DNA from: Colwellia sp. MB02u-6
Lineage (GTDB): Bacteria; Pseudomonadota; Gammaproteobacteria; Enterobacterales; Alteromonadaceae
Length of the DNA stretch: 64,000 bases
NCBI RefSeq assembly: GCF_014077095.1
Contig: NZ_JACGVG010000035.1
Location: forward strand, 310,001-374,000
Reading direction: 5' to 3'
The position numbers were made by a program, and so were the translations under genes. Shown piece after piece: positions 4,628 to 33,910 of this stretch (position 1 is the stretch's first letter; each line of letters begins with the position of its first letter). A model generated the notes under the pieces. That model was not told the DNA's origin, searched no databases, and saw only the letters and a program-made list of their open reading frames with translations.

Positions 4628-7039
4628 TTGTCAGTACTATCTAAATCACAAACTATAAAAAGTTTAATCATCACTAATCAGTTTGCTACTGATATTTTGC
4701 TATTAAATACCCCAAATGAGGTTTGGCAGTATTTAGCACAAAATATTGTTGAAAAGCTCGGTTTTGATGATGCCGTTATTTATACTTTAGATGCCGGGGG
4801 GGAAACCTTAAGTCGTATGTCGGGCTTTGAAAAGACAACCTCCTTCAACCATGATAAAAGCAGTAACATTGAAATAAGAAATACTTCGTCTAACTCGATA
4901 GTTATTCCTTTTAATGAAGGTGTTATCGGTAAAGTTGCGGCAACCAAGCAAGCGCTATTAGTCAAAGATATTCGAGAATTTGAAGGTTATATTGTTGAAG
5001 ATGAAACCACACTATCAGAGTTAGCCGTGCCTATTTTATTTAAAGAGCAATTATTAGGTGTTATTGACTCTGAACATGCACGAGTTAATTTTTACACTGA
5101 ATATCACCTGAGAACACTGACCGCATTAGCTTCTCTTGCTGCAATGAAAATATCTCAAATCATCAAAGTAGATGGCTTGGAAGAGGTGATTGAGAATTTA
5201 GAATATGCCAATAAAATTCAAGATGCCTTATTTGAGATTGCTGAGCTTACCTTTACAACTAAAACTATGGAGGGATTTTATCGGAGTTTACATCAATGTA
5301 TTGGACGTATTACTTTTGCAAAAAACTTTTTTGTTGCCTTACTGAAAGATGATGGAAAAATAATTGAATTTCCTTATGCGGTAGATGAATTTGACCAAGA
5401 TATTGTTGACGAGTTAGATCAAGGAAAGATATTCGAACAAGTGGCCATTAATCCGGAACATTTAAGTATTACAGGCTATGCCCTGTCAAAAGATAAACCT
5501 TTTCTACTATATGAAAAAGATATTCAAAAAATGCTTGATAACAAGGAACTCTATATTCTAGGGAGCATACCAAAAGTTTGGTTAGGCGTGCCTTTTGGTC
5601 GTGGTCATAATAAAGGTATTGTCGTTGTACAAAGTTATAATACTGATTTTTTATTCCAAGAAAAAGATAAACAACTGTTATCTTTTGTCGCGAAACATAT
5701 CAATAATGCCATTGATAGAATGGCAGCTAAGCAGAAGCTTCAGTTCTTAGCATTACATGATCCTTTGACAGACTTACCTAATAGATCGCTTTTTAAAGAT
5801 AGAATTCAACATGCGTTTTTACATTGTCAGAATAATCGCCAAGACAATTTAGCCATACTATTTATTGATGTAGATAGATTTAAGCAAGTTAACGACAATT
5901 ATGGTCACCATGTTGGTGATAAATTGCTGATTTACATTGCAAACTTGATTTCTGCGATCTTGAGGAGCACAGATACATTGGCACGTTTAGGTGGTGATGA
6001 ATTTGCCATACTGCTTGATGGTAAGATTGATTATGAGACCATTTGTCGGATAACTGAAGGTATTATCGAGGCGACATCAGGGGCTTTCAATATCGATGGT
6101 TTGAATATTTGTAGTAGTGTCAGTATTGGTATCGCAACTTACAGTGATGCGAGTGAGAGTGCTGATCAATTATTGATTGATGCTGATCATGCTATGTACC
6201 AAGCGAAGCTCAAAGGACGTAATCAGTATGTCGTTTTTGAAGGGCTTGAAGAACAAAATAAATCAACTAATGTTAAAGTCGAGTATGATTTCGATCATGC
6301 AGTTAAAAACTTTGAGTTTATCAGCAATTATCAACCGCTAATCGATTTTGATACCGGTGATGTTATTAGTGCTGAGGTGTTGGTACGATGGCAGCACCCT
6401 AAATTAGGACTGTTGTTTCCAGATGTTTTTATTCCTATTTTAGAAAGATCAGGGCAAATAGTACAGCTTGATCTTTATATGCTGAAGTTGGCGGTGAACA
6501 ACCTCAAGCTTTGGGCAGACTGGCTGCCAGAAAAATTTAAGCTAAATGTTAATGTATCAACATCAGGCTTTGCGTCGCAAGACTTCATTAACTATATGCA
6601 AACACAGCATTTAGAATGTGCAGAGATCACCGAGCGATTATGCATAGAAATTACTGAAGAAAGTTTAATTCTTAACGTTGATGCCGTGAATAAACATTTA
6701 GATATTTTGAAACGTCTTAATATTCCAGTAGCATTAGATGATTTTGGTACGGGTTTTTCATCGCTGAGTTATTTACATCAATTTTCTTTAGATTATTTGA
6801 AAATAGATAAAAGCTTTGTTGATGATTTAAATGAAGTGAACAGTAAGGTCCTGATATTAGACGCCGTGGTTAATTTAGCTAAAGCGTTAAAGATAAAAAC
6901 CACAGCTGAAGGTATTGAAACAGCAGAGCAATATAAAAAGCTTAAAGACATTGGCTGTGATTTAGGGCAAGGCTATTATATCGCAAAACCGCTACTCGAT
7001 ACTGACTTTAAACGTTTTCTTTTAAACAGGGAAAATTAA
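4628..7039 (+). CDS. GAF-GAF-GGDEF-EAL cyclic-di-GMP protein
   Basis: This 803 aa protein probably both makes and degrades cyclic di-GMP. Two GAF-like sensor regions (about 15-185 and 195-365) precede a GGDEF domain with an intact GGDEF signature at 455-459 and an RxxD inhibitory-site motif (RSTD) five residues before it. The C-terminal EAL domain has EVL at 583-585 in place of EAL but keeps the catalytic and metal residues in NVNVST, IEITEE, LDDFGTGFSSLSYL, LKIDKSF and TAEGIE, so phosphodiesterase activity is plausible. No transmembrane segment is visible, so it is likely cytoplasmic. The start is TTG, the only candidate after an in-frame stop at 4607, with a weak ribosome site. It appears monocistronic. 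The GAF ligand is unknown. Confidence 0.9.
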   Translation: MSVLSKSQTIKSLIITNQFATDILLLNTPNEVWQYLAQNIVEKLGFDDAVIYTLDAGGETLSRMSGFEKTTSFNHDKSSNIEIRNTSSNSIVIPFNEGVIGKVAATKQALLVKDIREFEGYIVEDETTLSELAVPILFKEQLLGVIDSEHARVNFYTEYHLRTLTALASLAAMKISQIIKVDGLEEVIENLEYANKIQDALFEIAELTFTTKTMEGFYRSLHQCIGRITFAKNFFVALLKDDGKIIEFPYAVDEFDQDIVDELDQGKIFEQVAINPEHLSITGYALSKDKPFLLYEKDIQKMLDNKELYILGSIPKVWLGVPFGRGHNKGIVVVQSYNTDFLFQEKDKQLLSFVAKHINNAIDRMAAKQKLQFLALHDPLTDLPNRSLFKDRIQHAFLHCQNNRQDNLAILFIDVDRFKQVNDNYGHHVGDKLLIYIANLISAILRSTDTLARLGGDEFAILLDGKIDYETICRITEGIIEATSGAFNIDGLNICSSVSIGIATYSDASESADQLLIDADHAMYQAKLKGRNQYVVFEGLEEQNKSTNVKVEYDFDHAVKNFEFISNYQPLIDFDTGDVISAEVLVRWQHPKLGLLFPDVFIPILERSGQIVQLDLYMLKLAVNNLKLWADWLPEKFKLNVNVSTSGFASQDFINYMQTQHLECAEITERLCIEITEESLILNVDAVNKHLDILKRLNIPVALDDFGTGFSSLSYLHQFSLDYLKIDKSFVDDLNEVNSKVLILDAVVNLAKALKIKTTAEGIETAEQYKKLKDIGCDLGQGYYIAKPLLDTDFKRFLLNREN

Positions 7040-7140
7040 CTTTAAATCGCTTAATGCCGATACAGCTAACTTAAGTTAACGCTAGGTAAGTATTGAGCTA
7101 GACTAGCAATATTTTTAAGCAATACCTTTAAGTAATAGCT

Positions 7141-27188: not shown

Positions 27189-27674
27189 TTATCTAAGCTT
27201 TTTGGCTAATAACTCAAGTTTATCCTCTAATTGCGTTAGCTTTTCAGTAATGGCGGTATTTTGAGTAATAATTTGGGCGTTTTGCATTCTCAACTCTCTA
27301 TTTTTAATGTTGGTATCGGCAAAACCAAATATTTTGTTGATAAACATCGCCCCCATAGCACCAAGTATACCTACGCCGAGTATAAACATAATAAAAACAG
27401 ACGCTCGACCAATAAAAGTGATGGGGTAGACGTCACCAAAACCAATCGTGGTAGAAGACATTACCATTAGCCAAATAGCATCGCTATAGCTTTTTATGTT
27501 TGAGGCTTCAAGCCCATATTCAGCTTGATAGGTAATATAGCCCAAGGATAAGTTTAAGGTTAAAAATAATAGGAAAGATGCAATGCCAATAAAGCCATAG
27601 TTGTAATTTTTTATGCCGAAGTCATCGACACGGTATAAATTAGTTTTTTCCATTGCTTTTTGAACGACTATCAT
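27189..27674 (-). CDS. Two-helix potassium channel, last gene of the PspA cassette
   Basis: This 161 aa protein has two membrane helices (about 27-48 and 87-112) around a pore helix and a selectivity filter TTIGFGD (75-81), a variant of the potassium-channel TxGYGD signature with Phe in place of Tyr. A charged C-terminal coiled coil (about 120-160) may hold the tetramer together. No RCK or nucleotide-binding domain is present. It is transcribed in the same direction as the RHH, yjfK, pspA and yjfI genes, 65 bases after the RHH gene, with an AAGAGA ribosome site. An ion-channel role in envelope stress is inferred from the neighbourhood. Confidence 0.85.
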   Translation of the reverse strand: MIVVQKAMEKTNLYRVDDFGIKNYNYGFIGIASFLLFLTLNLSLGYITYQAEYGLEASNIKSYSDAIWLMVMSSTTIGFGDVYPITFIGRASVFIMFILGVGILGAMGAMFINKIFGFADTNIKNRELRMQNAQIITQNTAITEKLTQLEDKLELLAKKLR

Positions 27675-27739: not shown

Positions 27740-28069
27740 TTAGTCAATAAGACTATTATCGACATAATTAATCAAGTCATCCATTAATTTTTTCTTAATT
27801 TCAAGTTGCTGCTCTGATGATAACGCATATTTTTCAGCCAGTAAGGCATAATCGTCAGCTGACAAGCTTACGGTTAATCTTGGACGTTTAGGGCGCTTAT
27901 TTATCGGTAAACCAAGAATGTCTCGAATTTGCTCTGACGGGCTGATACCAGCCTCTAACGCTTGCTTTCTAATCGCGAGTTGAATTTTCTCATCCATATC
28001 AAAAGCAACTTGCACTGCTTTGACTGCTTTTACGGATGATTGCCATTTGTCAGGAATTTTTCGTGACAC
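27740..28069 (-). CDS. Putative tandem ribbon-helix-helix protein
   Basis: This 109 aa protein is not a named family to me, but its sequence reads as two ribbon-helix-helix units. Unit one (about 18-53): strand VKAVQVAFDMDE, helix KIQLAIRKQALEAG, helix SPSEQIRDILG. Unit two (about 63-104): strand RLTVSLSADD followed by two helices. Two units in one chain could fold as an intramolecular dimer that binds DNA. The start is GTG with a GGGAG ribosome site, two bases after the yjfK stop, so the genes are coupled. It is the obvious local candidate to bind the palindromes at 29987, 30024 and 33898. Function is inferred. Confidence 0.62.
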   Translation of the reverse strand: MSRKIPDKWQSSVKAVKAVQVAFDMDEKIQLAIRKQALEAGISPSEQIRDILGLPINKRPKRPRLTVSLSADDYALLAEKYALSSEQQLEIKKKLMDDLINYVDNSLID

Positions 28070-28071
28070 AA

Positions 28072-28710
28072 TTAACTCCCTGGATACATATCAACAATAT
28101 CGGTGGTGGGTTTAAATAAGGTTAAAAATACTTCAGTATCGCCGTCTTGCCATACTTCAATATCGATGCCTTTATCTTGATCTTCATCAAATAGCGAATA
28201 AAGCTCAAATTGCTCACCACTGTCTTTGCCTTGGTAAGCTGAGAGTTCATCTTTTCGATAATCTTTGCGATGAAAGTAACCTACTTGGGCATAACTGCTT
28301 TGTTGATATATTTCGCTGCTCCAGCCTGACGTGTTACTACTGTCAGCTATGCGCTCTAATTGCGCTTGACCCGGCTCATCAAAAACTTCAGCAAATTGCT
28401 CAAGATCAAACAGTGTTTCAACATCTTGATGCAATATTTTCAGGGAAAATTTTAGATAGGTTTTATCATCAACGTCCAAAGTTAAATACAACTCTGTATT
28501 GTCACCACCCTGCAAAACCCATTCTGCTTGAGTTTTATTTTCAAATTCATAGCTGTTCACGGCTGTTACTTGAAATTCTTGCGCTCTTAGTGCTGCGGGC
28601 AAACCAAAACTGTCTGATAGCACAATGATGTCACCTAGGGTGAGTTCTTTAACATTATTGAGTTTACGTTCTGGTGTTGGTTTCTTAAATATATTTTTAA
28701 AAAAGCTCAC
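28072..28710 (-). CDS. yjfK: YjfK-like protein (DUF2491 family)
   Basis: This 212 aa cytoplasmic protein matches YjfK in length and gene position: in Escherichia coli the order is yjfI-yjfJ-yjfK-yjfL-yjfM-yjfC, and here it follows the yjfI and pspA/yjfJ homologues. Visible features are an N-terminal basic segment (MSFFKNIFKKP), a central beta-rich region (LTLGDIIVLSDSFGLPAALRAQEFQV) and a C-terminal VEVWQDGDTEVFLTLF-like stretch. The biochemical role of the family is unknown. A terminator-like hairpin lies between pspA and this gene, which may set its level below that of PspA. Confidence 0.78.
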   Translation of the reverse strand: MSFFKNIFKKPTPERKLNNVKELTLGDIIVLSDSFGLPAALRAQEFQVTAVNSYEFENKTQAEWVLQGGDNTELYLTLDVDDKTYLKFSLKILHQDVETLFDLEQFAEVFDEPGQAQLERIADSSNTSGWSSEIYQQSSYAQVGYFHRKDYRKDELSAYQGKDSGEQFELYSLFDEDQDKGIDIEVWQDGDTEVFLTLFKPTTDIVDMYPGS

Positions 28711-28805: not shown

Positions 28806-29495
28806 TTACTTCTTTTTAGCTTTTAAACGCTCTAATACTGAATTTGCGTTGTTGTCACTAGCGCCAATGCCGGCTTCTTTAAGCTTAGCTTCAAGTGAGT
28901 TATCTGAGTTTTCTGACTCAAGTACTTCAGCAGCTTTCATGCGATCATCAAATTTTTGTTGCTTAGCTTTAATGCGTTCTAATGAGTCTTTGGCACTTAA
29001 TAGCTTAGAGTTACTTGATGAGAAGTTATCGGTAATTGCTGAGGTTGCTTTTTGCACACTTTCTGTGGTTTTCACCATAGACAATTGACGTTTGTATTCA
29101 GCTACGTGACGTTCACTCTTTTTCACTAACTCTTTTAAGCGTTCAGCACTACCTTGAAAGCTATCAAGCGATTGCTGCTGCGTGGCGAGTTCATTTTCAA
29201 GTGTTGATATCTTTTCAGCAACCGCTAAAGCAAGTTCGTCGTCACCTTTTTCTAGGGCTTGAACGGCATAACCTTCATGCTCAGTAACTTCACGCTTAAT
29301 GCGCTCAACGTCACGGCTAGAGGACATTTGTTGTGCCATAACACCAGTTAGGTCACGTTTAGCTTTAGTGAGGTGATTTTCTGCGTCACGAATTTCTTGT
29401 TCAAAAATACGTGTGGCATTTGAGTCAATAATGGTTTCACCGACTTCAGTTGCGCCACCGCGAATAGCGGTCATAATTTTTTTAAAAATACTCAT
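28806..29495 (-). CDS. PspA/IM30-family membrane-stress protein (YjfJ-like)
   Basis: PspA/IM30 proteins polymerise on the inner membrane and protect it under stress. This copy of about 229 aa has the N-terminal amphipathic helix (MSIFKKIMTAIRGG), then a long coiled coil (about 25-185) with the family pattern EQEIRDAENHLTKAKRDL, and a short C-terminal helix ending in basic residues. Two adjacent ATGs exist; the one at 29495 has the better spacing (7 bases) from AGGAG. It follows the yjfI homologue by about 23 bases and so corresponds to YjfJ, a paralogue of the PspA in the pspABC operon. No pspF, pspB or pspC is present nearby. Confidence 0.92.
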   Translation of the reverse strand: MSIFKKIMTAIRGGATEVGETIIDSNATRIFEQEIRDAENHLTKAKRDLTGVMAQQMSSSRDVERIKREVTEHEGYAVQALEKGDDELALAVAEKISTLENELATQQQSLDSFQGSAERLKELVKKSERHVAEYKRQLSMVKTTESVQKATSAITDNFSSSNSKLLSAKDSLERIKAKQQKFDDRMKAAEVLESENSDNSLEAKLKEAGIGASDNNANSVLERLKAKKK

Positions 29496-29518
29496 CATAA
29501 TACTCCTAAGGTGGTTGC

Positions 29519-29932
29519 TTAAATTAAGTAATCACTCATGTCATCAATAATTTCTAGCGCATTATTGCTCAATACCGCTAGTTCGTGTTCGATATCATCA
29601 AATGTTGAGCTAATCGCTAGCGCACCAAAAATGACATATTTATCACCAATTTTCGAAAATGAAGATAATGGCATAGGTATGTTCATTTCTAACATACTGA
29701 CATGCATCTCATTTATCTTGTTTAATTTAACTTCTTCTTCACCCCAGAGGTAGGTGATACAAAGAATTTGATCATCCGTTACCGACACAAAAATAGGTAA
29801 CTCTTCACGGCCGAATACCGAAATTTGTAATACATCGACTTCACCTGATATGGGTTGGCAATCAAACACCATCCCAGTATCTGAATCATCAGCCAAGGTA
29901 TTTAGGTAGTCAGCTATTTTATGAATATTCAT
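29519..29932 (-). CDS. yjfI: YjfI-like protein (DUF2170 family)
   Basis: This 137 aa protein fits DUF2170/YjfI: INIHKIADYLNTLA-type N-terminus, FGREELPIFVSVTDDQILCITYLW in the middle, and MPLSSFSKIGDKYVIFGALAISSTFDDIEHE near the end. It is always found just before the pspA/yjfJ gene in such clusters, and here too. The open frame extends to an ATG at 29944, but the ATG at 29932 has GAGG seven bases upstream. It is the first gene of the cassette, downstream of a promoter flanked by two palindromic operators. Function unknown. Confidence 0.85.
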   Translation of the reverse strand: MNIHKIADYLNTLADDSDTGMVFDCQPISGEVDVLQISVFGREELPIFVSVTDDQILCITYLWGEEEVKLNKINEMHVSMLEMNIPMPLSSFSKIGDKYVIFGALAISSTFDDIEHELAVLSNNALEIIDDMSDYLI

Positions 29933-29986: not shown

Positions 29987-30003
29987 ACGACATAATATGT
30001 CGT
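29987..30003. promoter_or_regulatory. Operator palindrome 1, near the yjfI transcription start
   Basis: ACGACATAATATGTCGT is a perfect palindrome with 8-bp arms and one central base. It lies 55-71 bases upstream of the yjfI start and just downstream of the predicted -10 box, with its centre 36 bases from that of operator 2. Confidence 0.85.
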
Positions 30004-30011
30004 ATTGGTTT

Positions 30012-30039
30012 AATTTAGCATCATGACATATTATGTCAA
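30012..30039 (-). promoter_or_regulatory. Predicted sigma-70 promoter of the yjfI-pspA unit
   Basis: On the minus strand a consensus -35 TTGACA (30034-30039) is followed, after 16 bases, by TAAATT (30012-30017) as -10. The -35 box lies inside operator 2, so binding there would block RNA polymerase. Confidence 0.65.
30024..30038. promoter_or_regulatory. Operator palindrome 2, over the -35 box
   Basis: TGACATATTATGTCA is a perfect palindrome with 7-bp arms around a central T. It shares the GACATAnTATGTC core with the sites at 29987 and 33898. Confidence 0.87.
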
Positions 30040-30152
30040 GTGCTTATTTCATCTTTCTTATTTTATCTTAAGTTAGCTTAAGCTATATTAAACGTTTTTG
30101 TGCTAACTAAATGATCAATAATGTAGTTGCAGTTTACCTGCATTCAATGTGC

Positions 30153-31859
30153 TCACTGTAAATGAGCATTGTTCAAGCCTTGTTGATCTTGCCATGCTTT
30201 TTGATGTAATTGATAAATTGCATGACTGCCAAGATAATTAATCGGTACGGTTTCACTGTCTTGATAAAAATCTCGAGAAAATTCAAAGGCATTAGTGACC
30301 ATAGGTAAGGTTAGCCAATGGTGAGCAACAGGCAATTGAGGTAAGCGTTTTAATCTTGTTAAAGGCGCTGCGCCCATTTTACTGGCAATAGTCCAACCCC
30401 ATTCGCCGAAACTAGGTACGTTGTCATGATATTGCTGAACAGTTGAATATCCAGCAGCTTGCACCGTTTTACCAATAGCAATAAAGGCGTCTTTAGCATG
30501 ATAAGGACTGGCCGATTGAATGCCAATTAAGCCATCGCCCGCCAGTAGTTGTTTTAATCTGGCATAAAAGTGAACTGAATAAAGTTTATTCAAATCTGGA
30601 TGGCTAGGGTCGGGTAGGTCAACAATAATGGCGTCAAAGGTTTGATGGCTTTGCAATAGTTGGTCGATAGCGATAAATGCATCAGCGGCAATAATTTCAA
30701 CACGCTCATCGCGCAAACTTGCCGCGTTTAAATCTTCGATGGCATTAGCTAGCCTCAGTGGTAATTTCTCATGTGGATTTTTAAATAATTCAATGAGTTG
30801 CTTATCTAAATCCACTAAGGTGACCTTTTTAGGTTGCCACTGTAAAACATCTCTTAATGCTAGGCCATCACCGCCACCAATAATTAGAATGTTTTCATAG
30901 CGTGCTGAGCCCGCTAACACTGGGCTAACAAGATAACTGTGGTAAATAAACTCATCTGAGGATGAAAACTGTAAGCGGCCATTTAAATAAAAGTTAATAA
31001 TATTGCCTTCGCTAGGGCCCATATTTCTTTTGGTAAAAGTCAGTTGTTGAAAACGTGTTTTGTCACTATAAACAACCTTGTCAAGATAAAGTAAATTACT
31101 CATTTGACTTAACCAGCCATTACCAAATTGGTAAATTGCCATAATCATTACTAATAAAATACCATGAGCTGTTATTAAGGTTTTTCGCCAGGTCAATTTT
31201 TGCCAATAATATAAGATAAATATAATGCCAGCAGTTAGATTTAAAGCGGCAGTTAATGCACTCGCTTTGCTGATGTCTATAGATAAGAGAAATATTACCC
31301 AGATACCGGCACCAATACCGGCACCAATATAATCAGCACCATAAATGGTGCCAAGATTATTTTTAAGATGCTTTTGATGTATTTCTTCGCGTATGCGTGC
31401 AATAAGGGGTATTTCCATACCAATAAAAAAGCCCAGAATTAGCCCGAAAAAATAGGGACTATTAAAGGCAATAAAGCTCAGTTGTTTAAATAAACCGCCT
31501 CGCGGGTAAGCATCAGGGGGCAAGTTAAACATCGATCCTAATATGTCAGGAAAAGTCTGAGTGATGGCGATCAGTCCGCCAATAATGAGTATTGAGCTAC
31601 TACCCAGAAAAGCAATCATTAGCTCTAACCAAACAAAGCCATTAAAGGCACATTGAATTTTTCGTGCCGCAAAAGCACCTAAACCCATAGCGACAATCAT
31701 CAGGCCAATCATGGCGTAAATAGTACTTTCCATAACACCAAGTACACGACCGGCGTAATGTGACAATAGGTATTCATATATCAGGCCACAACCCGCTAAA
31801 ACAGCCATAGTTAAAATCAGGAGCACATCATCCCATAGCCTATTTCTACTGCTTGTCAT
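30153..31859 (-). CDS. Membrane-bound polyamine aminopropyltransferase (spermidine synthase-like)
   Basis: This 568 aa protein joins a membrane domain of about seven helices (residues 10-245) to a C-terminal spermidine synthase-like domain. The latter shows the dcSAM/SAM-binding ILIIGGGDGLALRDVLQW and VTLVDLDKQLIELF motifs and the catalytic-site region DAIIVDLPDPSHPDLNKLYS, with the aspartates typical of true aminopropyltransferases. It should transfer aminopropyl or a related group to a polyamine-like acceptor at the membrane. It is the last gene of the second unit, 103 bases after the DUF350 gene, with a hairpin in the gap. In related clusters it accompanies PspA and DUF350 proteins. Confidence 0.9.
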   Translation of the reverse strand: MTSSRNRLWDDVLLILTMAVLAGCGLIYEYLLSHYAGRVLGVMESTIYAMIGLMIVAMGLGAFAARKIQCAFNGFVWLELMIAFLGSSSILIIGGLIAITQTFPDILGSMFNLPPDAYPRGGLFKQLSFIAFNSPYFFGLILGFFIGMEIPLIARIREEIHQKHLKNNLGTIYGADYIGAGIGAGIWVIFLLSIDISKASALTAALNLTAGIIFILYYWQKLTWRKTLITAHGILLVMIMAIYQFGNGWLSQMSNLLYLDKVVYSDKTRFQQLTFTKRNMGPSEGNIINFYLNGRLQFSSSDEFIYHSYLVSPVLAGSARYENILIIGGGDGLALRDVLQWQPKKVTLVDLDKQLIELFKNPHEKLPLRLANAIEDLNAASLRDERVEIIAADAFIAIDQLLQSHQTFDAIIVDLPDPSHPDLNKLYSVHFYARLKQLLAGDGLIGIQSASPYHAKDAFIAIGKTVQAAGYSTVQQYHDNVPSFGEWGWTIASKMGAAPLTRLKRLPQLPVAHHWLTLPMVTNAFEFSRDFYQDSETVPINYLGSHAIYQLHQKAWQDQQGLNNAHLQ

Positions 31860-31903
31860 GGTTATTCCTAGCTTGAGTTAAATGAGTGTTTAATGAAAGG
31901 GGG

Positions 31904-31941
31904 AAAATAACCAAGCGTAATAATTTACTCTTGGTTATTTT
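31904..31941 (-). terminator. Hairpin between DUF350 and aminopropyltransferase genes
   Basis: AAAATAACCAAG and CTTGGTTATTTT form a perfect 12-bp stem around a 14-base loop. The T run is inside the stem and no longer T tract follows, so it may be a weak terminator, an RNA-processing site or an attenuator. Confidence 0.6.
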
Positions 31942-31962
31942 AATAGCAAAATTTTGATAAAA

Positions 31963-32865
31963 CTATGACATTAACGCCGTTAAAATAAGCGCAATTGAAA
32001 TGCTAATCGCCATCTCAACACTGGCGACACCAATATTGTGTTGATGGTCTACTTCCTCAACTAAGTTGATACCCATCAGCACTAGGCGTTTAGCAATAGA
32101 CGTAAGAATAGCGACTAATATGGTCATAATCATACCAAAGATAAACCAGCCAACTATATTAGCTAATAAGGTCTCTGGACTATAAGTTAAAAAGTGGCTG
32201 GCAGCTGTTACCGCTAGGGCCGTGCTAATAACTTGACCAGCATAACGAATGGCGAGAGCAACTTGGCCTTCAGCAAAGGCATTTTGCATGCAGCTATTTT
32301 GATTGTTTTTAGCGTACTGGCGTTCTTTAATACGGGTAACTAACACTAACATGGCTTGTGAGACTATAAAGCCAGCGATAATAGCGATAAAGGTATTGAT
32401 ATCTAAACCGTAAACCCACAGTAATACCGCGCGAATAATAATGGCGGTGGCAATAGCACCTGAAGCATCGACAATACCAACTGATATATTATGGGCTTTA
32501 ATTTGCGCATTTTTATCTATTTGGTTTAAAGCAAAACGGTCATGAAAAACCCGGCCTACTTTAATTAAAATCAAACCTAAAATGCCATAGCTTGCCATGC
32601 CAACAACTTCCATTAAATAACTTTCGGCATTTTCACCGGTAATGGCACCCGTTAGTACGATACCCAAGGCAGCAACACTACCGGCAACACTGATACCAAA
32701 GGCAAAGTTATCTTCTTTGGCAAGTTCGTCGGTAGAGTTAACTTTTGCAGATAAACCACTAATAAAGCGCATGGCGCAAAGTAATATAATGGCAATCGTT
32801 ATATCGATAGCTAAGAAAATTAATAACTCTATATTTAGACCCGTTATTTCAATAAATGTATTCAT
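31963..32865 (-). CDS. yjfL: DUF350 membrane protein with duplicated domain (YjfL-like)
   Basis: This 300 aa protein is an integral membrane protein of about eight helices made of two DUF350 units (about 15-140 and 155-300), each with hydrophobic helices and a VAIRY- or FGISVAGS-like stretch. YjfL of Escherichia coli has one unit of about 130 aa, so this is a duplicated form. An AGGGAT ribosome site overlaps the stop of the preceding lipoprotein gene (8-base gap). DUF350 proteins recur next to PspA and polyamine-ligase genes. Their activity is unknown. Confidence 0.84.
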   Translation of the reverse strand: MNTFIEITGLNIELLIFLAIDITIAIILLCAMRFISGLSAKVNSTDELAKEDNFAFGISVAGSVAALGIVLTGAITGENAESYLMEVVGMASYGILGLILIKVGRVFHDRFALNQIDKNAQIKAHNISVGIVDASGAIATAIIIRAVLLWVYGLDINTFIAIIAGFIVSQAMLVLVTRIKERQYAKNNQNSCMQNAFAEGQVALAIRYAGQVISTALAVTAASHFLTYSPETLLANIVGWFIFGMIMTILVAILTSIAKRLVLMGINLVEEVDHQHNIGVASVEMAISISIALILTALMS

Positions 32866-32873
32866 ACTTATCC

Positions 32874-33851
32874 CTACTTTCCACGTCTAAAACTTCGTGA
32901 CGTTGTACTCTTACTGTTTCTAAAGCTAGCATTTTTTCCACTTGTGCTTGATCTCGCATAAGTGCTTTTATTGGCTGTTTTGCTAGCAAATCGATTGGCA
33001 CTGGTTTGTGCGCTTTTGCTCTGGCTAGAAATACTTGACGCGCCAGTTCTATTTTTGCTGTAAGTACTGGTGTATTTTTGGCCACGGCTTTGAAATGATT
33101 TTTTGGTGCGAGTATCTAAATCAGTTTGTTTACGTAGTTGATTTGGCGAACTGTAGCGCTTGCGGCCATAATCATTGTAATAACTATAATTTCGGTTACG
33201 GCCCCAATCATTATAACTCGTTCGGCGAGAGCCAAATACATCACCCATCATTGAGTACATACCGTACCAAGCCCAAAACGACATACCATTAGAACCAGTA
33301 GTCCAGTTACCATAAGACGGATTGCCAATAAGCTGTTCACCTGTGCCAAAGTCTTGTGCTTTATTGGCTGCTAGGCTTTGCTCTTTTGACATCGCATTAA
33401 CGCGCGGTAAAGTGCCATCAGACATATCAGCCAAGACATTAAGCGGATCGCTTAATGCATCAGAATATAGAACGGGATCGGCTGCTTGATAAAGGTTTAA
33501 TAACTCACCATAAATAGCTTGAGAACTCTCAAACATTTGTGGTTGTTTTTTTACCGTATTTAGTCGGTCAACTAAGGCAACAAACATCGGGCCTTTTGTG
33601 CCGGTATCTTTTAAAAACTCGTCAATTAAGGGTTTATAATCTGGCTTACTTTGTAGTAATCTCTCCCCGTATTGGGTAATTAAATTAGCATTACGAACTT
33701 GCCCGTTAGCAAGTGCTTGAGCAAGTAATTCAATACGTTGTTCAGTGAGTGGGATTTGTTGAGTGATTTGCCCTTTCATTGGATCTCCACAAGCGGAGAG
33801 CAATAACGTTAGCAAGAGTATCATTGATTTTAGCGGCTGCATTCCTGCCAT
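32874..33851 (-). CDS. Predicted lipoprotein with Tyr/Ser/Lys-rich tail (YjfM position)
   Basis: This protein of about 325 aa starts with a lipoprotein signal peptide (MAGMQPLKSMILLLTLLLSAC). The frame is open to an ATG at 33902, but that lies inside the operator palindrome, while the ATG at 33851 has a good GAGGAC ribosome site 6 bases away and gives a normal signal. The mature N-terminal half is helical; after SFWAWYGMYSMMGDVFG comes a basic, low-complexity tail rich in Ser, Arg, Tyr and Asn. It takes the place of yjfM (DUF1190) in the Escherichia coli cluster and shares a general layout with it, but homology is not established. First gene of the second unit. Confidence 0.75.
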   Translation of the reverse strand: MAGMQPLKSMILLLTLLLSACGDPMKGQITQQIPLTEQRIELLAQALANGQVRNANLITQYGERLLQSKPDYKPLIDEFLKDTGTKGPMFVALVDRLNTVKKQPQMFESSQAIYGELLNLYQAADPVLYSDALSDPLNVLADMSDGTLPRVNAMSKEQSLAANKAQDFGTGEQLIGNPSYGNWTTGSNGMSFWAWYGMYSMMGDVFGSRRTSYNDWGRNRNYSYYNDYGRKRYSSPNQLRKQTDLDTRTKKSFQSRGQKYTSTYSKNRTGASSISSQSKSAQTSANRFASKTANKSTYARSSTSGKNASFRNSKSTTSRSFRRGK

Positions 33852-33897
33852 AGTGTCCTCAAAAATGCTATGGTTATCGCTCATTAGTATCACTTCT

Positions 33898-33910
33898 GAC
33901 ATATTATGTC
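33898..33910. promoter_or_regulatory. Operator palindrome 3, promoter of the lipoprotein-DUF350 unit
   Basis: GACATATTATGTC is a perfect palindrome 47-59 bases upstream of the lipoprotein start. On the minus strand it includes CATAAT, a possible -10 box. Same core as the two sites upstream of yjfI. Confidence 0.83.

Follow-up and report, generated by a model that had tools for sequence, protein, structure and literature searches.

What controls the cassettes in which yjfI and pspA genes accompany a polyamine-transfer gene is the question raised by a 64,000-nucleotide stretch of the genome of Colwellia sp. MB02u-6 (contig NZ_JACGVG010000035.1, positions 310,001 to 374,000; hereafter the window). 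Cassettes of this YjfI-PspA-polyamine type occur widely, with neither a function nor a mode of control known for them, and an operator together with its regulator and regulon would provide a first handle on them. In the accessible part of Ravi et al. 2024 (PMC11237479), CesT/Tir (YjfI)-PspA operons with a spermidine-synthase-like gene form a second group. The original prediction for the window had placed one palindromic operator at two promoters of the cassette. We propose that this palindrome, GACATAnTATGTC, is probably the operator of an autoregulated ribbon-helix-helix (RHH) repressor, encoded within the cassette, with an envelope-stress regulon that would operate beside the PspF system.

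Within the window, GACATAnTATGTC has three perfect copies. A pattern search located the perfect 13-base form, GACATANTATGTC, at 29989-30001, 30025-30037 and 33898-33910, and found no additional site with 0 or 1 mismatch in the window. With up to three mismatches, 28 occurrences were found against 28.9 expected by chance; as these counts equal chance, only the perfect copies are informative, and window sites with 2-3 mismatches were discarded as chance occurrences. The inner and outer copies before yjfI are 36 bases apart from centre to centre, and the three palindromes were thus confirmed as perfect, in position and in distance. The further idea that the pair brackets a TTGACA promoter held in part. 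The pair takes in the -35 hexamer and the region just beyond the -10 hexamer, covering the -35 box and the expected transcription start; the promoter is not wholly bracketed, because the -35 hexamer lies inside the outer copy and the -10 hexamer between the copies (Table 1).

The window genome (4.01 Mb, 42 contigs) contains six perfect copies of GACATANTATGTC, against about 0.45 per 4 Mb predicted from base composition, and no perfect match to the reversed pattern, which served as control. With up to one mismatch, the real pattern gave 13 matches and the reversed control 3. The motif is therefore not frequent genome-wide. Beyond the window, one site precedes an NhaA-type Na+/H+ antiporter gene followed by a band-7 gene, a second precedes an NfeD gene with two band-7 genes behind it (nfeD-qmcA), and the third precedes a small gene, unmatched in Pfam, that stands ahead of PspA and PspC genes, here called the second psp operon (nhaA, qmcA and htpX are the customary names for these protein types). 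Since half of the perfect sites fall outside the cassette, the regulon appears to be genome-wide in the genus; the original view of the cassette as one regulon is supported and proved too narrow. Seven one-mismatch places in the genome (reversed control, 3) were left out of the regulon. One of them, GCCATAATATGTC in L019 near 4923 (G000:C28:14422), lies 137 bases before a gene for a BAX-inhibitor/YccA-like membrane protein (named by eye).

Perfect sites number 6 to 9 in each of the 17 genus genomes searched, 115 in total, and the reversed control has none. Inspection covered 12 of these genomes and 81 of their 82 sites (the left-out site is in G011), and all 81 precede one of nine envelope-related gene kinds: yjfI with 24 sites (a twin in 12/12 genomes), the second psp operon with 12, the lipoprotein, NfeD and NhaA genes with 11 each, an M48 protease of HtpX type with 7, YqiJ or a YqiJ-like protein with 2, a YidC-type insertase with 2 (one genome, twin), and a QmcA-like protein with 1. 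The site of the lipoprotein unit stands at an equal distance in 11 of the 12 genomes, G011 being the genome with the left-out site. For HtpX, a target in 7/12 genomes, the window genome offers no good orthologue (best 32% identity), and the YqiJ-like gene of G010, which has no Pfam match, was labelled from 28% identity. The regulon of the window genus comprises five to eight promoters. The twin at the YidC-type insertase gene is in G010 (L107 4972-5011), with its two sites 27 bases apart.

An RHH-type gene stands 3' of pspA in every genus yjfI cluster that was read to its end, and likewise in the distant clusters read. The distribution of this gene was determined by a profile search with the RHH profile. 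Among 147 genomes of the window's family, the 65 that carry the gene all contain at least two copies of the 13-base site (381 sites), against 9 of the 82 genomes that lack it (11 sites); the reversed control pattern gave 9 sites across all 147. Most genomes with the gene have 6-13 copies, and those without it are near chance level. The 15-base form was found in 52 family genomes, every one of them with the RHH gene, and the Fisher P for the co-occurrence of site and gene in the family, calculated with kinship ignored, is 2.8e-32. Among 295 genomes of the order, 91 have the gene and 24 the 15-base form; when the two lists were compared, 23 of the 24 were RHH-positive, and the exception, G333, has one site, at genes without an evident link (L073). 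A draw of 274 genomes from the class yielded the gene in 10, of which 8 lie outside the order. Because the site is almost confined to genomes carrying the RHH gene, the RHH protein is the probable switch for these membrane-maintenance genes, and its earlier nomination as the regulator is supported by the co-occurrence in the 147 genomes.

DUF2170, the YjfI domain, also occurs in 48 family genomes without the RHH gene, of which 20 were read, and no perfect site is present at these 20 loci. Their use as a clean control was dropped, as tblastn with the window YjfI found nothing in 19 of the 20. Another conserved element, TGTGACGTATAATTTACA or TGTGAATTATAATTTACA, was seen by eye about 100-190 bases upstream of yjfI in 16 of these 20 loci (L259-L278); it resembles a TyrR box, and this lineage of the cassette may have a different regulator.

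A scan across species genomes yielded 180 stretches that encode relatives, and the twin site at yjfI was followed in the best 80 of them, which come mostly from Colwellia, Cognaticolwellia, Thalassotalea and relatives. Two or more sites (GACATWnWATGTC) lie within 400 bases upstream of yjfI in all 80 of these named RHH loci, so that the motif is conserved before homologous yjfI genes and the operator stands at the RHH protein's own promoter. The spacing of the twin is 36 in 53/80, 35 in 19/80 and 33-39 in the remainder; the outer site reads TTGACA in 80/80, the -10 hexamer is TAAATT in 70/80, and the spacer is 16 in 76/80. In L179 the twin lies about 345 bases from yjfI with foreign-looking DNA between, and the roughly 300 bases at 6800 to 7095, which have AATTGGTATAA-like ends, are perhaps a small inserted repeat.

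A further 48 loci represent other families, other orders and divergent members of the family, and the 45 with a yjfI hit were counted (L340, without a cassette gene, was left out). At least two perfect sites were found in 25, one in 12 and none in 8. Outside the order, perfect sites are kept in four of eight RHH loci (L345, L346, L350, L351; RHH identity 33-55%), at other spacings (15, 18 or 46), and L347, L348, L349 and L352 have no perfect site. Family f11 has a shifted site, GACATTnAATGTC as the inner and GACATATAATGnC as the outer (imperfect) copy, and its RHH proteins have diverged too. In family f2 the twin adjoins the RHH gene in 11/11 genomes. As only the yjfI twin is general in f2, autoregulation seems to be ancestral and the wider regulon to be specific to certain lineages. 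Outside the genus, a carbonic anhydrase-like gene (named by eye) in G114 is preceded by two sites spaced 34 bases apart (L053 1468-1514), and in family f16 (L076, L081, L082) a site stands 303 bases before the gene for a 260-residue secreted coiled-coil-like protein.

At the other targets in the genus, the site likewise coincides with promoter elements. It lies over the -10 hexamer at nhaA (TATTAT in 11/11, with the -35 hexamer located 17 bases before), at the second psp operon (TTGACC as -35 in 9/12, spacer 16) and at htpX (a TTG-type -35 at spacer 16), and over the -35 hexamer at nfeD (TTGACA in 11/11; TACTTT in 9/11, spacer 17). At the lipoprotein promoter, the placement of the site relative to the hexamers is ambiguous. 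A partner hexamer is conserved 16-17 bases from the hexamer in the site for five of the six promoter groups. The second psp operon has sigma-70-like conserved hexamers, TTGACC-16-TATTAT being the commonest arrangement in 12 genomes, and its promoter does not look like one of the sigma-54 type (no systematic sigma-54 scan of these promoters was made). The second psp promoter (L016 6410-6470 and genus relatives) also contains another conserved dyad, TTGGTCAATTTCACTA ... TTGACCA, the right arm of which is the -35 box, and a second regulator is likely to act there, judging from this dyad.

The label RHH for the final gene of such operons is that used in the accessible part of PMC11237479. The structure model of the 109-residue protein has helices at 27-40, 44-52, 71-80 and 88-107 after two strand-like stretches, the helices being in the order expected for RHH proteins, with a mean predicted local distance difference test (pLDDT) score of 73, and fits two RHH units in one chain. 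Among 27 members, Pfam profile matches were obtained for NikA-like (9/27), FitA-like RHH (3/27) and RHH_1 (1/27), and the PHROG Arc-like repressor matched weakly (E 0.077). Non-significant Foldseek matches include the tandem-RHH AvtR, an F-plasmid relaxosome chain and single-chain Arc; searches for a solved relative yielded nothing useful. No link between site variants and single residues of the RHH strands was found, and loci with altered residues keep the site. No toxin gene adjoins the RHH gene, its neighbours being the DUF4178-like gene and the ion-channel gene.

Other explanations of the palindrome were weighed against an RHH repressor. Another transcription factor could bind the site, with the RHH protein being antitoxin-like or a partner of the cassette. 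An Lrp/AsnC-type gene opposite nhaA is the closest candidate; Pfam confirmed its type, and it lies 205-228 bases from the site, on its other side, in the 11/11 genus genomes with the nhaA site. Lrp/AsnC proteins often use odd-centred palindromes. That site, however, adjoins nhaA (39-53 bases from its start) and not the AsnC gene, and no AsnC gene stands alongside the other site-bearing promoters in the loci read (the distribution of the AsnC gene was not searched). The RHH gene, moreover, is the only gene of DNA-binding type inside the site-bearing operons of those loci, and site presence tracks RHH gene presence across the 147 genomes, which makes control by another factor quite unlikely. The RHH protein might instead be an activator or dual regulator, whose binding switches the regulon on. 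Sequence alone does not exclude activation, and RHH proteins acting in both roles exist; the sites nevertheless occupy repressor-like positions, over the -10 hexamer (NhaA, second psp, HtpX), the -35 hexamer (NfeD, yjfI outer) or the expected transcription start (yjfI inner), and we consider activation unlikely. That the palindrome is a promoter signature, i.e. a sigma-factor element, or a small mobile repeat is highly improbable. It does contain TTGACA- and TATTAT-like hexamers, which six promoter groups use, but it is symmetric over 13-17 bases, supplies the -35 hexamer of some promoters and the -10 hexamer of others, and is near chance in RHH-negative genomes of the same family, which presumably have the same housekeeping sigma factor; its flanks differ between promoters, unlike those of a mobile repeat.

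Several results weigh against the RHH operator itself. As the palindrome contains -35- and -10-like hexamers, some of its overlap with promoter elements follows from its own sequence; because of this resemblance to both hexamers, the conserved partner hexamer outside the site is the independent evidence. The Fisher P overstates the evidence because the genomes are related, and the DUF2170 genomes without the RHH gene give weak support only, because their DUF2170 belongs to a divergent subfamily. Eight of the 45 further RHH loci are without a perfect site: L255, L256, L337 and L338 have a one-mismatch copy, the sequence of L257 ends 15 bases before yjfI, and L348, L349 (both of one genus) and L352 have degenerate copies only. 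The wide regulon is not general, because a third site occurs in only 2 of the 11 f2 genomes, and outside the genus the sites of L053, L065, L072, L118 and L120 stand at genes without an evident envelope role. As to the protein, sequence by itself gives weak evidence that it is an RHH, the independent label being that of PMC11237479; both strand regions are unformed in the lone-chain model, the best Pfam RHH-type matches of the window protein (E 0.0067-0.14) are all under the curated cut-offs, and Foldseek with the model gave no match at E <=0.001.

The relation to PspF was examined in the same genomes. PspF is present in 147/147 family genomes, which rules out the RHH protein as its replacement. 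In the window genome, PspF adjoins its own pspA, pspB-like and pspC-like genes, and the 10-kb region of this locus has no site better than two mismatches. Three PspA genes were seen in this genome, two of them under the RHH site. At the second psp operon (L016), a sulfurtransferase-like gene precedes the operon, the PspF locus is elsewhere, and no pspF adjoining and divergent from pspA was found.

From the sites, where they stand and how they are conserved, from their co-occurrence with the RHH gene and from the geometry of the promoters, all observed by sequence, we infer DNA binding, repression and release under stress by the RHH protein. Made from a late gene of the yjfI-pspA operon, the protein would repress its own operon via the twin over the -35 hexamer and transcription start and, in the window genus, would also repress the lipoprotein-DUF350-aminopropyltransferase, nfeD-qmcA, second pspA-pspC and nhaA/band-7 promoters; in some relatives the targets would extend to the HtpX-type M48 protease, YqiJ and the YidC-type insertase. 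Repression would occur by occlusion, at operators that overlie the -10 or -35 hexamer either singly or in pairs. Membrane stress would release the repressor, and the target genes would rise jointly, independently of PspF-driven pspABC. Release might proceed via YjfI and/or PspA2, the PspA of the same operon, which is a guess. The bare order yjfI-pspA-RHH is found in some distant loci (L075, L257, L325, L327, L328, L346), and in L325, L327, L328 and L346 yjfI, pspA and RHH are the only ones of eight cassette genes searched that stay together; for this reason YjfI and PspA2 are natural signal candidates. More tentatively, and with considerable doubt, YjfI-PspA2-RHH might form a third control module of the phage shock protein (PSP) response besides PspF and LiaRS, with YjfI-PspA-RHH as its core: on engagement of a damaged membrane by PspA2, YjfI (a CesT/Tir-type chaperone fold) or PspA2 would bind or release the RHH repressor. 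A membrane-bound effector would then directly set the repressor of the polyamine-transfer, band-7, NfeD, antiporter and second-PspA genes.

The features of the window are collected in Table 1; genes were named from Pfam matches, and from NCBIfam for the aminopropyltransferase. Conserved starts and leaders indicate that the likely true starts of yjfI and the lipoprotein gene are 29932 and 33851. The gene set of the second group of Ravi et al. (DUF2170, PspA, membrane aminopropyltransferase, DUF350, lipoprotein, DUF4178) is present, with the lipoprotein having no match in Pfam and DUF4178 being under its cut-off.

Table 1. Genes, predicted operators and promoter elements of the cassette (window coordinates).
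Feature	Coordinates	Strand	Evidence and remarks
Inner operator (predicted), yjfI promoter	29987..30003		17-base perfect palindrome around GACATANTATGTC; over expected transcription start
Outer operator (predicted), yjfI-pspA-DUF4178-RHH operon	30024..30038		15-base palindrome; includes -35 box
Single operator (predicted)	33898..33910		Upstream of lipoprotein-DUF350-aminopropyltransferase unit
-35 hexamer TTGACA, yjfI promoter	30034..30039	-	Overlaps outer operator; TTGACA in 11/11 aligned genus promoters
-10 hexamer TAAATT, yjfI promoter	30012..30017	-	Between both palindromes, spacer 16; 11/11 aligned genus promoters
RHH protein, 109 residues, two RHH-like halves; proposed regulator	27740..28069	-	Co-occurrence; weak RHH profile matches
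YjfI, DUF2170	29519..29932	-	PF09938 E 6e-35; open reading frame open from 29944, conserved start 29932
PspA/IM30 family protein, YjfJ-like (PspA2)	28806..29498	-	PF04012 E 6.4e-42
DUF4178-like protein	28072..28710	-	PF13785 E 0.00011, under its cut-off
Ion-channel protein downstream of RHH gene; operon membership uncertain	27189..27674	-	PF07885 E 1.1e-08
Lipoprotein, first gene of second unit	32874..33851	-	Open reading frame; conserved leader and start
DUF350 (YjfL-type) membrane protein	31963..32865	-	PF03994 E 1.7e-34
Membrane-fused polyamine aminopropyltransferase	30153..31859	-	NF002956 E 7.7e-177, over its cut-off

The proposed regulon would show which envelope genes are grouped by the cell, namely two PspA paralogues, band-7/NfeD, the Na+/H+ antiporter and the aminopropyltransferase. 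It predicts membrane or ion-gradient damage as the class of inducer and offers a simple reporter. In one lineage, what began as plain autoregulation would here have expanded into a membrane-stress regulon, with the PspF system still intact alongside.

Among known systems, the PspF regulon of the E. coli phage shock response is similar in that a PspA/PspC operon is driven and an effector operon is coupled to its own regulator, but PspF is a sigma-54 activator, whereas an RHH repressor at sigma-70-type promoters is proposed here. MetJ, Arc and CopG are autoregulatory RHH repressors, small basic-strand DNA binders with paired or palindromic operators over their own promoters, as is predicted for the present protein; the latter differs in having two RHH-like halves per chain, in lacking any sequence match above cut-offs and in its proposed control of envelope genes. 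The sigma-W regulon of Bacillus subtilis includes NfeD and flotillin/band-7 proteins with PspA, and the CpxR regulon of E. coli includes HtpX; the contents overlap, and the type of regulator and the site differ from those of the RHH system. In the P. aeruginosa bac operon a YjfI-PspA pair also heads the operon, and negative control of its own operon is proposed for BacA, the YjfI homologue; the promoter proposed there is a sigma-54 promoter, and the accessible part of that report mentions no RHH gene or palindrome (PMC10948618). To the earlier statement that no regulator is described for yjf-type clusters with this site it must be added that the accessible part of PMC11237479 names an RHH transcription factor as the last operon gene "in some cases"; the operator and regulon were not found in open-licence PubMed Central, where the operator matched only an unrelated plant paper (regulon databases were not covered), and the accessible part of PMC5343134 has no mention of pspA or yjf. 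In gene content the cassette resembles the second group of Ravi et al., with which it shares YjfI/DUF2170, PspA, the membrane-fused aminopropyltransferase, DUF350, the lipoprotein, DUF4178 and sometimes the final RHH gene; that paper, in its accessible part, gives gene neighbourhoods only, to which the operator, the promoter geometry, the outside regulon and the link between site and RHH gene are added here.

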